From positions 186,001 to 250,000 of the forward strand of contig NZ_JAQNDK010000002.1 in assembly GCF_028368935.1 (NCBI RefSeq): 64,000 bases of DNA, given 5' to 3'. Both the position numbers and the translations under genes were made by a program. Each line of letters opens with the position of its first letter. Position 1 is the stretch's first letter. The notes beneath the pieces are model-generated. The model was given only the letters and a program-made list of their open reading frames with translations, did no database searches and was not told where the DNA came from. The DNA comes from Sorangium aterium (GTDB taxonomy: Bacteria; Myxococcota_A; Polyangia; Polyangiales; Polyangiaceae). This document shows positions 22,266 through 59,995 of this stretch, piece after piece.

Positions 22266-23687
22266 TTACAGCCCCGCGGCGAGGAACCGGGCGAGGAAGC
22301 CGCGGGTCCCGGCGTTGCCGAGGGAGTTGCACACCGGTGAGGCTGCGCCGATCGGGCAGTCGACGTCGCGGTCGTAGGACCAGTAGTGGACACCGGCGAG
22401 GCCCTGGGACCTGGCGAAAGCGGCGGTCTCGTCGACGTCGGTCAGCGTGTAGAGCTCGCCGCGGACGTCGTTGCCGCCGATCATCGGGGTGAGCTCGATG
22501 TTGGCGTAGGGCACGCCGAAGTGATCGTGCAGGTTGTACGCGGCCTGGATCGCCGACTGGCCCATGTCGCACTGTCCGCCGGACACGACGCACACGCCGG
22601 GACCGGGCGAGCCGTAGTTCATGGTCATCAGGTTGACGGTGACGTAGCTGGGCCAGGTCTCCGCGCTGCCGTCGAAGCCGAAGACGTCGGCCACCGCGGC
22701 CATGGCGGTGTCGCCGAGGACGTTGAGGCTCGAGCCGATGTTGCTGCCGAGGGAGCGCGCCGTCGACGCGCCCTCGTTGTTGGCGAGGGTCGCCACGGTC
22801 AGGCTGAAGCGCAGGTCCGGGTACGCGGCGTGCGCGGCCTCGAGGCGCTGCACCAGCGCCGCGATCACCTGCGGCGACTGGCCGGCCTCGATATCGAGGT
22901 CGACGCCGATCAGGTGCGGGCCGGCCCAGCGATCGAGGAAGGTCGCAAAGCCGGCGTCGGAGCCGCAGGTGAACGAGCCCGCCGCGCCGCCGGTCGACAG
23001 GATGTAGTCGACGCCGGCGGCCTCGAGCACGGGCACGTTGGCGGCGGCCATCGCCGCGCCGGGCACGTCGCCCCAGCGCTCGTTGCCGCACTCGCCGGTG
23101 GCGAAGGCCAGGCTGACGACGTTGCCGCCGGCGGCCTTGAGGTCGTCGGTGAACACGGTCTGGGTCCCCGACACCTTCGTGGAGATCACGTTGGTGTTCC
23201 AGTTCATGTTGACGCCGGTGTCCTTGTAGGGGCCGAACAGGAGCGCGCCGTTCCCGTTGCCGCCGCCGCCATCGCCGCCGCCAGCACCACCGCCGCCGTT
23301 GCCGGTGTCGTCGCCGCCGCCGCTGCTGGTGCCGCCGCTGCCGTTGCCGCCGCCGCCGCTGCCGGTGTCGCCGCCGCCAGGACCACCGCCGCCGTCGCCG
23401 CTGTCGCCGGGATCGGGATCACCGCCCTTGCAGGTGCCGGGGGTCCACAAGGCCGGCACGGCGGGTGGGGTCCAGCCGGGCTCGCTGGTGTGGCCCTGCA
23501 CGCACCGGTAGTAGGCGCCTCCGAACTCGACGACGTCGCCGGCGGAGAAGGCGGCCCGTTCGGTCCACGCCGGCGCGCTCGCGCATTGCTCGGCGGTGAG
23601 GTGCGCTGCGTCGTTGTCGCTGGCGGCGCACGCGGAGGCGAAGCTCGCCGCGGCGAGCAGGAAGCGGAGGAGGGTGCAGCTCTTCAT
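22266..23687 (-). CDS. Secreted GH18-type chitinase with N-terminal chitin-binding module
   Basis: 473 residues from ATG 23687, with GAGGA upstream. Lipoprotein-like signal peptide (FASAC). Residues about 32-90 form a CBM5/12 chitin-binding module (AWTERAAFSAGDVVEFGGAYYRCVQG ... W). A Gly/Ser/Asp linker of about 65 residues follows, then a TIM barrel of the GH18 family. The family catalytic signature DxDxE is present as GVDLDIEAG; YDYILSTGG-type and MTMNYG barrel strands also fit. It should hydrolyse beta-1,4-GlcNAc chains outside the cell, in keeping with a predatory or polymer-degrading bacterium. Endo or exo action cannot be told. Confidence 0.88.
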   Translation of the reverse strand: MKSCTLLRFLLAAASFASACAASDNDAAHLTAEQCASAPAWTERAAFSAGDVVEFGGAYYRCVQGHTSEPGWTPPAVPALWTPGTCKGGDPDPGDSGDGGGGPGGGDTGSGGGGNGSGGTSSGGGDDTGNGGGGAGGGDGGGGNGNGALLFGPYKDTGVNMNWNTNVISTKVSGTQTVFTDDLKAAGGNVVSLAFATGECGNERWGDVPGAAMAAANVPVLEAAGVDYILSTGGAAGSFTCGSDAGFATFLDRWAGPHLIGVDLDIEAGQSPQVIAALVQRLEAAHAAYPDLRFSLTVATLANNEGASTARSLGSNIGSSLNVLGDTAMAAVADVFGFDGSAETWPSYVTVNLMTMNYGSPGPGVCVVSGGQCDMGQSAIQAAYNLHDHFGVPYANIELTPMIGGNDVRGELYTLTDVDETAAFARSQGLAGVHYWSYDRDVDCPIGAASPVCNSLGNAGTRGFLARFLAAGL

Positions 23688-24729: not shown

Positions 24730-25013
24730 CGCCGCTACGCGCGTTGCGTAGCCCGTCAGCGCTTGCGCGCCATGACGCGAAAGAGCCGTTAAACAGGCTG
24801 CAATCACGCGCGTCGGCTATGACGGCTGCTGTCCTAGCCTCGCAGAAACGCAGAGAAACATAGGCATTCAGTGCTATCTTGCAGGGTACTTAGCAAAGCG
24901 CCCTGCCCCCGGCTGGACTCCGGAAGCAGGGCTGCGAACACCGGACGGTGGCCCGCCCGATGCACCTCGCACGCGCATCATGGGCCCCCCTTCTGGGGAG
25001 AGGCAAGGGGCCC

Positions 25014-26090
25014 GTGCCGAACGTGCTTCCGATGGAGACCCGCGTGCGCATCGCGTCCGCGTTGGTCGAGGGGACGAGCGTGCGTGCTGTCGAGCGCCAG
25101 ACCGGCGTCGCCAAGAGCACCATCCTGCGCTTCGCCGTGGAGCTCGGTGAGGGCTGCGCGCGCCTGCACAACCGGCTCGTGCAGGGACTGTGCGAGCCCG
25201 ACATCGAGCTCGATGAGCAGCGGAGCTTCATCGCGAAGAAGGACAAGCGCGTGACGGCGGAGGACCCGGCCGAGTACGGCGATGTCTTCACCTTCACCGC
25301 GTTCGCGAGGCGATCGAAGCTGGTGATCTCCTACGCCGTTGGGAAGCGCGACCAGGCGACGACGGACGCGTTCCTGGCCGACTTGCGCGCCCGCGTACTC
25401 GTCGTCCCGCAGATCACGAGCGATGGTCTCGCCGTGTACGTGCCTGCCATCGACGCGTCGTTCCGCGGCTGTGCGGACTACGCCATGGTGATCAAGGAGT
25501 ACGGCTACAACAAGAGCCCGGACCACAAGTACGAGCCCGCGCGCGATGCGCGCTTCATCCGGAAGACGGCCGTCTTCGGCGCGCCCGATCCGAAGCGGAT
25601 GAGCACGTCCGGCGTCGAGCGGTACCGCCTCACGGCGCGGCACATCAACGGGTGCAAGCGCCGGCTGGCTCTCTCGTTCAGCAAGAGCCTGCGGAGCCAC
25701 AGCGCCGCCGTGGCGTTGTCGGTCGCGACGTACAACCTGACGCGGGTTCACGCGTCGCTGCGCGTGTCGCCTGCAATGGCCGCGGGGATCGTCGCCGAGC
25801 TCTGGTCCGTCGAGGATCTGGTCCGCGCCGCGCTGGCGGAGCCAGCCGCCGCGCCGCCGGTCCCGCAGCCGGCGCAGACCGGGCCCGTCCGGCAGTTGCC
25901 CGGGGGCAAGGGGTGGCTCCGGCTCGTCTCGGGCGGTGGTACCCCGTCGACGCCGTCCACACCGCAGCCGCCACCCGCGGCGCGCACGGCGGCCCATCTG
26001 GAGCCGGAGCCACCGCCGCCGTCCGAGCCGCCGCCAGCGCCAGGGCCGCGCAGGATGGTACAGCTGAGGTTGTTCAGCGAATCCGAGTGA
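25014..26090 (+). CDS. IS1-type transposase
   Basis: 358 residues from GTG 25014, chosen because the protein then starts MPNVLPMETR, as related IS1-type transposases do; ATG 25032 is the alternative. An N-terminal helix-turn-helix (VRAVERQTGVAKSTILRFAVELGEGCARLH) is followed by a catalytic core with acidic residues in IELDEQRSFIAKK and QITSDGLAVYVPAID, and the late motif SKSLRSHSAAVAL...YNLTRVHASLRVSPAMAAGI. The usual W after DE is R/Q here. The frame is unbroken, so no frameshift is needed. The last about 90 residues are a Pro-rich tail not typical of the family. I could not define terminal inverted repeats, so the element's ends are unknown. Confidence 0.85.
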   Translation: MPNVLPMETRVRIASALVEGTSVRAVERQTGVAKSTILRFAVELGEGCARLHNRLVQGLCEPDIELDEQRSFIAKKDKRVTAEDPAEYGDVFTFTAFARRSKLVISYAVGKRDQATTDAFLADLRARVLVVPQITSDGLAVYVPAIDASFRGCADYAMVIKEYGYNKSPDHKYEPARDARFIRKTAVFGAPDPKRMSTSGVERYRLTARHINGCKRRLALSFSKSLRSHSAAVALSVATYNLTRVHASLRVSPAMAAGIVAELWSVEDLVRAALAEPAAAPPVPQPAQTGPVRQLPGGKGWLRLVSGGGTPSTPSTPQPPPAARTAAHLEPEPPPPSEPPPAPGPRRMVQLRLFSESE

Positions 26091-56579: not shown

Positions 56580-56826
56580 TGTCTCTCCTCCTGGAATCGC
56601 ACTCAGCATCGTGTTCGAGACGCCCATCGTCCCGTCTCGAAGACCAGCAAACGGCGGGCCATCACGCCGGCGAGGCACAGGTGTCGAGCTCGCGGCGCGC
56701 AGAGGATCGCACGTGGCACACGTCTCGCTGCGATCGAGCGGACACGAGGCGCGATCTTCTGCCCTCCGGCGGCCTCGACGCTCCTCCAGATTTCGCCCGG
56801 AGAAGCCTCGGTTCGAGGAGGAGGAT

Positions 56827-57744
56827 TCAGGAGATCGTCACGGCGCGAGGGCTCCCCGGGGCCGCCGCTCTCTTCGCTTCTGCCTTCAGCTTCCTCAGGT
56901 GTCCGTGCAGGGTCTCGGAGTCGAGGCCATGCAGCGTCAACCGGAAGCCGGCCTCGAGCGTCGAGCTGGGCACCATCGGATGATGGTTGTGCACCAGGGC
57001 GACGGGCAGCGGGTCGTTCAGGATCTTGCCGACGTAGAGCGCGATGATCTCGTCCAGCTGCAGCGAATTGCTCGCCCGCCAGAAATGGTGGTCCGACAGG
57101 AACAGCGCATAGAGCGGCGTGTAGATCTCGATGGCGGTCTGCAGGTCGACGATGTTCAGCCAGGTGTTCGGGAGGTCGCCGATGCTCGCGTCGTCATCTG
57201 TGATGGCAGAGAAGTCGATCTCTTTCCGGGGCTCGATCTCACGCCCCTCTGCGCGAAGCTTCTCGTTCAGCTCGATGATGAAGTTGTAGAAGGTCAGATC
57301 GTGGACCGTGAACGTGTTGTCCAGGAGGTCCTCCAGCCTCCTGGTCCTCAGCGGCGTCGTCGTCTCGATATGGATGCCCGGGACGTTGTCCTCGATGAAC
57401 TTCAAGATTTCCGTGCCGATGGTGAAGTGGCGCAGGATGAGGTAATTGGCCTCCGGGGCGACGAAGAGCCTCAGGCCCCAGTAAATGGACCGGTGCAACA
57501 ACCACGGAGATTGCCAGCTCGCCGGGACAAGAATCTTCATGAGCTTGATGCCGGAGATCGACAGGCGGGCGAACGGCCTGATGATCGGCATCACGACCCT
57601 GCGCGTGGTGCTGCGCTGGCTCTTCAGAAAGGCGGCTTTGGCCCTCTCGTCGATCGGCAAGGACCGGTCCAGGTACAAGGCCAGCCACGGATCGGGATCC
57701 CTGGGGTCGTGCTTCATCTTCCTGAAAAGGTCCTGAAAATCCAT
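56827..57744 (-). CDS. Unrecognised 305-residue protein of the ketosynthase operon
   Basis: 305 residues from ATG 57744, one base after the stop of the heme-oxygenase-like gene. No signal peptide; mixed helix and strand, rich in aromatic residues and His: HRSIYWGLRLFVAPEANYLILRHFTIGTEILKFIEDN, FTVHDLTFYNFIIELNEK, FLSDHHFWRAS, VHNHHPMVPSSTLEAG. The paired HH motifs (SDHHFW, HNHHPM) could bind a metal, but I do not recognise the family. Position in the operon implies a role with the two upstream enzymes, perhaps as acyl-processing enzyme or chain carrier. It is a good candidate for a new function. Confidence 0.75.
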   Translation of the reverse strand: MDFQDLFRKMKHDPRDPDPWLALYLDRSLPIDERAKAAFLKSQRSTTRRVVMPIIRPFARLSISGIKLMKILVPASWQSPWLLHRSIYWGLRLFVAPEANYLILRHFTIGTEILKFIEDNVPGIHIETTTPLRTRRLEDLLDNTFTVHDLTFYNFIIELNEKLRAEGREIEPRKEIDFSAITDDDASIGDLPNTWLNIVDLQTAIEIYTPLYALFLSDHHFWRASNSLQLDEIIALYVGKILNDPLPVALVHNHHPMVPSSTLEAGFRLTLHGLDSETLHGHLRKLKAEAKRAAAPGSPRAVTIS

Positions 57745-57745
57745 G

Positions 57746-58444
57746 TCAGTAGCTCCCGATCTCCTCGAGCTGGAGGCGGTAGAGTCGCGCGGTGACCCGG
57801 GCGGTCTTGAGGATTCTCGGCGCCATCCGCGGGAGGTTCAAGATACCACAGCGGAGCGCCTCTTCCAGCTCGCCCAGGTGATCTTCGTCGGCCTTCGCGT
57901 GATAGAGATAGAAGCTGACCGCCTGCGCCTCCAGGCGAAGGGCGGACTGCACATGCTCGGCCCACTGGGCCGCGACCCGCTTGCCTAGGCCTTCGATGAT
58001 GTACATGGCGCCGAGGAGATCGAAGGGGTTCGGCTGATCGGCGCGATGGAAGATCCAGGCGGACAGGGCCTCGCTGCCGATGTTCAGCTCGTGCCGCGCG
58101 AGCCCGGCCGGGTCGCCGCCGCTCTTCAGGTAGTCTTCCTCCAGCATCAGGTAATCGCGATGCTCCGTGGCCGCGTGGCGGATGAAGCGCGAGCGCAGCT
58201 CGGCGAACTCGTGGCCGATGTTGGAGGCGGCGCGCGCGATCCAGAGCGCCCCGTTCATGACCTGCGCCCGGTGGTTCAGCAGGAGCTCGTGGTAATCGGC
58301 CAGGCGAATGCGACGCTCGATCACGCGCCGCACGATCGGGATGTGATGCACCTGGGACTCGAAATCCAGCCAGATGGACGACAGCCCGCGCAGGACGGCC
58401 TGCGGTGAATCTTCGTCTCGAGGCGATGTACGTTCCGGAAGCAT
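57746..58444 (-). CDS. Heme-oxygenase-fold (HDO/UndA/CADD-like) protein
   Basis: 232 residues, all helical. The third core helix carries H-x3-D-x2-H (His182, Asp186, His189, YHAKADEDHLG), the hallmark of heme-oxygenase-like diiron oxidases; Glu151 in YIIEGLG and Glu94/His95 in TEHRDY are probable further ligands, with spacing like CADD or UndA. Such enzymes use iron and oxygen for C-C cleavage, N-oxygenation or, in UndA, decarboxylation of a fatty acid. Placed next to a ketosynthase, an acyl substrate is likely, but this is inference. It is between the ketosynthase (28-base gap) and the 305-residue gene (1-base gap). Confidence 0.82.
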   Translation of the reverse strand: MLPERTSPRDEDSPQAVLRGLSSIWLDFESQVHHIPIVRRVIERRIRLADYHELLLNHRAQVMNGALWIARAASNIGHEFAELRSRFIRHAATEHRDYLMLEEDYLKSGGDPAGLARHELNIGSEALSAWIFHRADQPNPFDLLGAMYIIEGLGKRVAAQWAEHVQSALRLEAQAVSFYLYHAKADEDHLGELEEALRCGILNLPRMAPRILKTARVTARLYRLQLEEIGSY

Positions 58445-58472
58445 CCCGAACCTCCCTGGTGATGACGGCGGG

Positions 58473-59603
58473 TCAGACGACCGTGAGCAGCATGAAGGCG
58501 ATGACGCAGCGGCCGCTCTCCGGGATGAAGCCGAGGACCTGCTGGCCCGGCTGCAGATCCCGCTCCTCGATCAGCTGATGCAGCATGAGGAGAATGGATG
58601 CGGCTCCCGTGTTCCCCTGGGAATAGAGGTTCGTGAACCAGCGAGCCTCGGGCACCATCGCCCCGGTCTTCGCGAGCAGCTTGACCATCTCTCCGCGGAG
58701 AGAGTGGGACGAGTAGTGCGCGAGGAAGTGGTCGATGGCTCCGGGCCTCAGACGTCGCCGATCCACGAGCTCGAGGTAATGCTTCGCCCACACGGGGAAC
58801 ATGCGGTAAAGCAGATCGAAGTCCTGCTTGAGGACGACGGCGCCCTGCTGCGCCGCGAGCGCAGGGCTGTCGTAGTGACTCCAGGGCTTCCTCTCACCCG
58901 CCCGGTTCCTGGAGGTGCCCGCGTACATGCAGGGGTCGAAGCGGTCGGCATAGGAGCAGAGATCGATCCATTCCACCCTCAGAGAGCGGCGCCCCTCGTT
59001 CGGCCTGGTCTCCAGGAGCCAGGCGCCGGCCCCGTCGGAGAGGGTCCAGCGGAGAAACTCGGTCTCCATCAAGGCGGAGGAGTCCTCGCCTTCCTGCTCC
59101 CGACCGGCATAGAAGCCAGGTCGGAAGAAGCGACTGGAGAACTCGGCGGCGCAGGCCACGCCGCAGTCGTGCTCGCCCGCCTTCAGCTGGAGGTAAACGG
59201 ACTTGAACGCCATCATGCTGCTGGCGCAGACGCTCTGAAAGCTCGCGATCTCCATCGGCCGCAGGCCGAGCTCGCCGTGGACCGCGCTGGCAAAACCGGG
59301 GACGAGGAGGTCGCCCTGGGTGGTGGCCGCCGCCAGGAAGGAGAGCCTCTCCGCGGCGATCTCGCTGCGCGAAAGCGCGTCCCGTATCGCACGAGCCGCC
59401 ATGTCTGCGCTGCTGTGAAGGTGCACGCCGTCCGGCGTCAACGCGTAATGACGTGTCTTGATGCCGTTCTGCCGCAGGACGAAGCGCCCGAGCCTGGAGC
59501 GTCTGTCGTTGAGCTCGCCGATGTACTGCTCCATCTCCTCGTTCGGGACCGGCTTGCCAGGCAAGAACGCGCCAGTGCTGGTGATGTAGACGGAACGATC
59601 CAT
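58473..59603 (-). CDS. KAS III-like beta-ketoacyl synthase
   Basis: 376 residues. The thiolase fold starts VYITSTGAFLPGKPVPNEEME. The active-site Cys126 lies in SFQSVCASSMMAFK; His296 in DHFLAHYSSH and Asn331 in YSQGNTGAAS complete the Cys-His-Asn triad. So it should condense an acyl starter with malonyl-ACP or -CoA, or make an ester or head-to-head product as OleA-type relatives do. It is longer than FabH (about 320). It is the first gene of the operon with the heme-oxygenase-fold and 305-residue genes. The 392 bases upstream, to the divergent transketolase, carry no clear gene. Confidence 0.9.
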   Translation of the reverse strand: MDRSVYITSTGAFLPGKPVPNEEMEQYIGELNDRRSRLGRFVLRQNGIKTRHYALTPDGVHLHSSADMAARAIRDALSRSEIAAERLSFLAAATTQGDLLVPGFASAVHGELGLRPMEIASFQSVCASSMMAFKSVYLQLKAGEHDCGVACAAEFSSRFFRPGFYAGREQEGEDSSALMETEFLRWTLSDGAGAWLLETRPNEGRRSLRVEWIDLCSYADRFDPCMYAGTSRNRAGERKPWSHYDSPALAAQQGAVVLKQDFDLLYRMFPVWAKHYLELVDRRRLRPGAIDHFLAHYSSHSLRGEMVKLLAKTGAMVPEARWFTNLYSQGNTGAASILLMLHQLIEERDLQPGQQVLGFIPESGRCVIAFMLLTVV

Positions 59604-59995
59604 GATCCTTCTCCGTGGCAGACATGGGCTTGGAGCTCGTCACGGCGGCATGCGGCATCAACACTACCTCAATCGCCCTCGCCGGGCCGAGGCGTAACCA
59701 TGTCCCGTCCTCGCGCTCTCGCTCGCACCCGTCTTGGTCGGAACCTGCGCGATCGTGCTCCGGGCCGTCGAAGAGGCGAACCGCGCCGAGCTCGAGGGCA
59801 TCCGCGCACAGATTGAGCACGGCGTGTCTGTCGATGAGCTGAAGAGCTCGGCGCCGCCGCCCAGGTTCATCCGCATCCTACGGCCGGTCGGCACCATCCA
59901 TGCGGGTCGACTTGGCTGCCGTCGTCGTGACCGGACACGAGCTTCGTGCGCGGTGGCGCCCTGCTTGCATCAAGACGGCAGCGTCAGGTGCAGCC
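59604..59995. other. Divergent promoter region with an uncertain frame
   Basis: A plus-strand frame from about 59734 reads TCAIVLRAVEEANRAELEGIRAQIEHGVSVDELKSS, which has coding-like composition, but it has no good start and no family. Promoters of both the ketosynthase operon and the transketolase should lie here. Confidence 0.4.

Follow-up and report, generated by a model that had tools for sequence, protein, structure and literature searches.

What does a bacterium make with a ketosynthase (KS), a dimetal oxidase of the heme-oxygenase fold (HDO) and a protein of the DUF6999 family when the three are encoded side by side? The question is raised by a gene trio in a 64,000-nucleotide stretch of Sorangium aterium DNA (contig NZ_JAQNDK010000002.1, positions 186,001 to 250,000 of the forward strand), here called the window. 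The answer that we put forward, and to which we give an even chance of being right, is a lipid pathway that is complete in three genes and moves laterally: the KS joins chains, the HDO oxidizes, and the DUF6999 protein acts as their partner. A two-chain pathway with a KS like StlD or DarB is known in kind; the placing of HDO and DUF6999 where DarA would stand is new. The trio now ties a Pfam family without function to two recognizable enzymes, and since the pathway consists of only three genes, its product can be sought directly. The trio, its important residues and the block in which it lies are as follows.

58473..59603, minus strand: KS, StlD/DarB-like, 376 amino acids (NF005293, E 4e-110; PDB 5gk0, E 7e-71)
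59226-59228, 58716-58718 and 58611-58613, minus strand: KS triad Cys126, His296 and Asn331, invariant in 9/9 aligned sequences
57746..58444, minus strand: HDO, 232 amino acids, predicted from PF14518, the structural model and the ligand columns
58163-58165 and 58154-58156, minus strand: E94 and D97 of the HDO, predicted ligands together with E151, H182, D186 and H189
56827..57744, minus strand: DUF6999 protein, 305 amino acids, all-helical model (PF22523, E 7e-115)
Within the same gene: DUF6999 residues H106, H148, D149, D231, H272 and E277, invariant in the alignment
56808..59749, minus strand: block in common with Sorangium cellulosum So0157-2, 93.9% identity (blastn)

A preliminary description of this DNA had read the trio as one tight minus-strand operon; its coordinates hold, as do the gaps of 28 bases between KS and HDO and 1 base between HDO and DUF6999. 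Family matches indicate that the coding of these open reading frames (ORFs) is not due to chance (PF22523, E 7e-115; PF14518, E 2e-9; PF08541, E 1e-9). That description had also supposed that the KS and the HDO work together, and had made its case depend on the three genes being neighbors in other genomes. They are. The searches covered 377 Myxococcota across the phylum, 108 in the family, and further sets of 14 and 79, which combine to 447 distinct genomes (G000-G446, with G442 and So0157-2 counted as one). DUF6999 was matched in 4, 4, 1 and 2 genomes of these sets, respectively, and its carriers are 6 of the 447: the window genome (G000), G442, G120, G392, G171 and G348. A seventh record is a plasmid of the marine bacterium Pseudoalteromonas sp. 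THAF3. The order KS, HDO, DUF6999 is kept in all seven records, and in three of them (G348, G171 and G120) KS and HDO form a single ORF without an internal stop. The fusions occur in three genomes, each from a different family, which makes an artefact of assembly improbable; to our knowledge, they are the first KS-HDO fusions. With the starts as we chose them, the DUF6999 start overlaps the preceding stop in five records, and one base separates the HDO and DUF6999 genes in both Sorangium genomes. Identity of the five non-Sorangium records to the window proteins is 42-46% for the KS, 44-49% for the HDO and 26-52% for DUF6999. The scan of genome contigs matched only So0157-2, and the named relatives outside the Myxococcota come down to the one plasmid. 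No match was obtained in the plasmid search at the DNA level, in viral contigs (searched for DUF6999 and HDO), or in PHROGs.

Comparison of the two Sorangium genomes suggests that the trio moves as a unit. When the window was aligned by blastn with two overlapping So0157-2 loci, only 56808-59749 aligned at length in the 16-17 kb compared; besides this block, the alignment has four rows only, of 46-64 bases each. The left flank of the trio locus in the window matches other places in the So0157-2 genome, and the right flank has no long match there among the matches listed. Thus, with only the block aligning and the flanks differing, the trio has different surroundings in the two genomes. About 146 bp upstream, 78% identical between the two, travels with the trio, and judged from these alignments the trio and this upstream stretch look like one laterally moving cassette. 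DUF6999 had no match in the other four genus genomes searched (G443-G446). The G+C content of the trio is 0.643 versus a window median of 0.712, which places it at the 1.1 percentile of 613 equal windows; G+C at third codon positions (GC3) is 0.85-0.89. As a separate observation, a So0157-2 stretch just outside the block (L002, 8993-9037) recurs in the window at 23347-23392 (46 bp, 85% identity), far from the trio, and is possibly a dispersed short repeat.

What the KS joins is suggested by its kinship. It had been called KAS III-like, with an intact triad. The triad stands, since Cys126, His296 and Asn331 are invariant in all nine aligned KS sequences; however, the enzyme is StlD/DarB-like and not a generic KAS III. 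Its best family model is NF005293 (StlD/DarB), where it scores 368 bits and the cut-off is 450, and StlD (5gk0) is by far its closest PDB relative. Thus, the KS resembles StlD and DarB in subfamily by best match, in length and in the Cys-His-Asn triad, but differs in scoring below the curated cut-off, in having no adjoining DarA, and in being linked or fused to HDO and DUF6999. The scoring of relatives, which left out G348, G171 and G096, gave 372, 432 and 439 bits for the trio KSs of THAF3, G120 and G392, and 602 and 478 bits for the DarA-linked KSs of G218 and G087. Within the window genome, the trio KS is the one strong match to NF005293, the next having an E of 7e-9. DarB forms 4-carboxy-2,5-dialkylcyclohexane-1,3-diones, and StlD a related dione (PMC5515871; this and the other papers are cited from the parts of their text that were available). 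Because of this kinship, the product points to a 1,3-cyclohexanedione or resorcinol type, or a related two-chain compound, rather than to the alkene, ketone or nitrogen-bearing lipid that had been proposed.

DarA, the companion of DarB in dar (dialkylresorcinol) operons, is tabulated as a DAR-aromatase (PMC3949708). An alignment search with the KS at E<=1e-50 returned 8 of the 377 phylum genomes: four trio genomes plus G202, G218, G096 and G087. Directly upstream of the KS in three of the four without the trio (G218, G096 and G087) lies a gene that we take to be DarA-like, from its family and from its place beside DarB. These DarA-like genes have no NCBIfam model at E<=1e-5, and the one that was scanned with Pfam gave no match. 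In an alignment search of 11 genomes, DarA was matched in G218, G096 and G087 themselves but had no match at E<=0.01 in five of the six trio genomes (G442, G120, G392, G171 and G348), nor in G202 and G026; the Pseudoalteromonas plasmid likewise has no DarA match. The defining feature of a dar operon, a DarA beside the KS, is not found at the trio. The likeness to the DarA-DarB operons, of which G218, G087 and G096 are Myxococcota examples, lies in a DarB-like KS with a dedicated partner enzyme; the difference is that HDO and DUF6999, and not DarA, stand beside the KS.

A KS tree of 15 rows groups the trio KSs with those of G202 and a Streptomyces pair (support 99/98); the Myxococcota and Bacteroidota KSs that are linked to DarA lie outside this group. 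A DarA-like gene is present in three Streptomyces plasmid records and directly follows the KS in NBC_00008 and NBC_01383, the two neighborhoods read. On linear Streptomyces plasmids (L011, 8703-18279; L012, 8712-18273), an acyl carrier protein (ACP), the DarB-like KS, the DarA-like gene and an FAD monooxygenase or oxidoreductase are accompanied by SCP2, FabF, a P450, an ACP, FabG and an F420 oxidoreductase; this cluster looks like a mobile, elaborated resorcinol-type pathway. At the G202 KS locus (L056, G202:C159, 35-1965), the next gene encodes a membrane-like protein of 237 amino acids, His-rich by eye, with no Pfam match at E<=0.01.

By its structural model, the second enzyme is confidently an HDO. 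It scores 37.8 bits against the 28.9-bit cut-off of PF14518 (Haem_oxygenas_2; E 2e-9), and its AlphaFold2 (AF2) model, with a pLDDT of 90.3, has the seven-helix heme-oxygenase fold. VIA-align matches the model to 3dde (Z 25.2, root-mean-square deviation 2.5, 217 residues) and to CADD, 1rcw (Z 24.8, deviation 2.0, 209 residues); UndA is among its Foldseek matches and PqqC among its fold matches. The motif H182-x3-D186-x2-H189, already pointed out in the preliminary description, is invariant in the seven trio HDOs, as are E94, D97 and E151. Canonical HDOs have a ligand set of three His and three Glu/Asp, and in MboA Glu86 and His89 form E-x2-H (PMC13185094). According to a 2026 review, 3H/3C sets are the majority and 3H/4C sets about a quarter, a mononuclear variant also occurs, and 4C/2H is one end of a ferritin-like range (PMC13108848). 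Column 97, on core helix 2, holds the canonical ligand His; in all seven trio HDOs it is Asp. Among 32 other alignable HDOs, this column is His in 29 and Asp in none; two have a gap there, and one has Phe, in a frame that is apparently misaligned. The 32 come from 46 other HDO loci, 14 of which were left out because none of their frames matched the trio profile at E<=1. In an earlier alignment, without L025, L028, L029 and L045, all 11 HDOs from outside the clade had His at column 97, and the window protein and its G026 sister had Asp. Column 94 is Glu in 11 of the 32, and the other HDOs seem to supply this carboxylate from another place. From these columns, a metal site is probable in the trio HDO and is predicted to be a 2-His/4-carboxylate set, to which H90, also invariant, could add a ligand. 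A conserved exception of this kind to the HDO ligand rule offers a test of whether a single exchange of His for Asp shifts an HDO toward ferritin-type diiron chemistry. UndA, CADD, SznF and MboA share the fold and the other ligand columns, and UndA works on fatty chains; the trio HDO differs from them in the Asp that replaces the helix-2 ligand His and in its fusion to the KS in 3/7 records.

The trio HDOs form a sharply set-off clade: among the 377 phylum genomes, five have a match at E<1e-90, four of them trio carriers, and the best of the remaining matches is at 5e-21. An orphan HDO of the same clade in G026 (L055, G026:C59, 10296-10949; 47.6% identity) has Asp at column 97 and Arg in the H182 column; it adjoins an acyl-CoA dehydrogenase, and the 20 kb that were read contain neither a KS nor DUF6999. 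Plasmids of Citrobacter (L013, 6679-10213) and Vibrio (L014, 6693-10296) have a common annotated order of thermostable hemolysin, AMP-binding protein, iron-containing redox enzyme (an HDO) and SDR, which is a different HDO pathway.

The third protein is a clear member of DUF6999 (PF22523), with 383 bits against a cut-off of 27. Pfam assigns the family no function, and the partnership with KS and HDO is what this locus adds; the name DUF6999 was not found in the full text of the literature searched, nor was a paper that ties the family to a KS-HDO pair. Structure prediction, which the preliminary description had recommended for this protein, gave an all-helical AF2 model (pLDDT 80) that has no PDB match at E<=0.001. 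A PDB profile search yielded only matches at E 1.2, to SAM synthase. A divergent HDO is not indicated by profile comparison (probability 0.1%). Foldseek listed UndA and AetD among its weak matches to the model (TM about 0.11-0.17, with E at 1.6 or higher), and the Z values from VIA-align stayed below 5, mostly to G-protein-coupled receptors, so that no fold was assigned. The two HH motifs that had been singled out are present in the window sequence, but these residues vary among relatives, and they were dropped as an active site. Instead, H106, H148, D149, D231, H272 and E277, among others, are invariant in 7/7 DUF6999 proteins, and this set would span four different helices of the model. A segment near residues 50-70 is strongly hydrophobic in some members, with a mean hydropathy of 2.36 in G120 and only 1.18 in the window protein, which suggests membrane association of DUF6999.

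How might the three proteins act in turn? The KS would draw two acyl thioesters from fatty-acid metabolism and condense them, as its kinship and intact Cys-His-Asn triad suggest; the most likely product would be a (carboxylated) 2,5-dialkylcyclohexane-1,3-dione. The HDO, touching or fused to the KS, would then oxidize this product with O2 at a dimetal center. For this second step, the likeliest chemistry would be an oxidative decarboxylation of the UndA type, in which the 4-carboxy-dione loses the hydrogen at C5 and the C4 carboxylate; the resulting enedione would tautomerize to a 2,5-dialkylresorcinol, and the HDO would do the work that DarA does in dar clusters. UndA itself converts fatty acids to 1-alkenes and CO2; the carboxylate sits on Fe1, and one of the routes proposed involves the removal of hydrogen from C3 (PMC13108848). 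By such a decarboxylation the HDO could replace the missing DarA, and fusion to the KS would help. The DUF6999 protein may be a partner at the membrane, where it would receive the lipid or modify it, given its all-helical model, the hydrophobic segment in some members and the invariant His/Asp/Glu set. A bolder version, which strikes us as unlikely, would yield aromatic or otherwise oxidized two-chain lipids independently of DarA. In it, the HDO that accompanies the KS, and is fused to it repeatedly, would have moved to a 2-His/4-carboxylate site resembling that of certain ferritin-like diiron oxygenases and would aromatize the ring by oxidative decarboxylation, and DUF6999 would represent a new family of metal enzymes, acting third and in association with the membrane. 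Lipid-related genes adjoin the trio in two genomes: an FA_hydroxylase-PAP2 fusion gene in G120 (L008, G120:C76, 3565-4911), 9 bp upstream of the KS-HDO fusion, and an MMPL/RND-type exporter gene in G392 (L018, G392:C676, 5294-7669), which overlaps the DUF6999 end by 4 bases. Literature searches on HDO with ketosynthase, StlD, DarB, resorcinol and UndA turned up no description of the trio in the available parts of the sources.

Several points weigh against this three-gene pathway. The KS stays below the NF005293 cut-off; the trio KSs were not resolved as one clade, the G202 and DarA-neighbored Streptomyces KSs lying in the same 99/98 group; and the G202 KS has neither DarA nor HDO beside it. 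The window genome holds one distant DarA-like match (E 1e-17) on another contig, and the absence of DarA is less sure in G171, G348 and G392, which are only 82-89% complete. HDOs in general are widespread, with matches in 188 of the 317 class genomes and eight in the window genome, and the G026 HDO, without KS or DUF6999, means that the linkage of HDO to KS is not absolute. With Asp at position 97, metal binding could be altered or weaker, and a beta-keto acid, if that is the product, could lose its carboxylate spontaneously. At the Sorangium, G348 and G171 loci, no other lipid gene with a clear link to the trio was seen, and the role proposed for DUF6999 is tentative.

Some of these points suggest other products. 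The KS might make a linear two-chain compound (a beta-diketone or beta-keto acid) or an alpha-pyrone, which the HDO would cleave, hydroxylate or decarboxylate to a ketone, alkene or hydroxy-lipid, much as the preliminary description had proposed. HDOs such as UndA and BesC do cleave C-C bonds (PMC13108848), and this idea is consistent with a KS that scores below the StlD/DarB cut-off and branches separately from the Myxococcota KSs linked to DarA. However, the closest characterized KSs, StlD and DarB, cyclize their products (PMC5515871), and StlD is by far the nearest PDB relative; we place a linear or pyrone product on the unlikely side. Asp97 can also be taken as the mark of a lost dimetal site, since one canonical ligand His is Asp in 7/7 trio HDOs. 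The HDO would then be metal-independent or single-metal and would aid cyclization or release, and oxidation, if it happens at all, would take place elsewhere. The enzymes of this fold that make PQQ and thiazole work without a metal (PMC13108848), PqqC is among the fold matches, and the G026 sister has Arg in the H182 column. Yet E94, E151, H182, D186 and H189 are invariant in 7/7, and Asp is itself a metal-binding residue; we regard loss of the site as quite improbable. Very improbable, in our estimate, is a trio that makes a signal or membrane lipid and not a resorcinol. In that case DUF6999, which may itself use a metal, would be the key new enzyme, and KS and HDO would do no more than prepare its substrate. 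Its invariant H106, H148-D149, D231 and H272-x4-E277 on four predicted helices would fit this role, and DUF6999 and PF14518 both match in Caulobacter vibrioides, a control genome, but no fold or sequence match links DUF6999 to any enzyme.

The three-gene pathway, as preferred here, would draw its substrates from outside the locus. Ten window genes and a methyltransferase gene, a subset of the window ORFs, were scanned with Pfam; they include no ACP, acyltransferase or polyketide synthase, in agreement with the preliminary description, and those of them nearest the trio encode a kinase, a CBS protein, a transketolase and the methyltransferase. No consensus promoter or terminator was found on the strand of the operon. 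Elsewhere in the window, positions 24948-26090 give a weak match to an IS1-type transposase (PF03400), below the cut-off.

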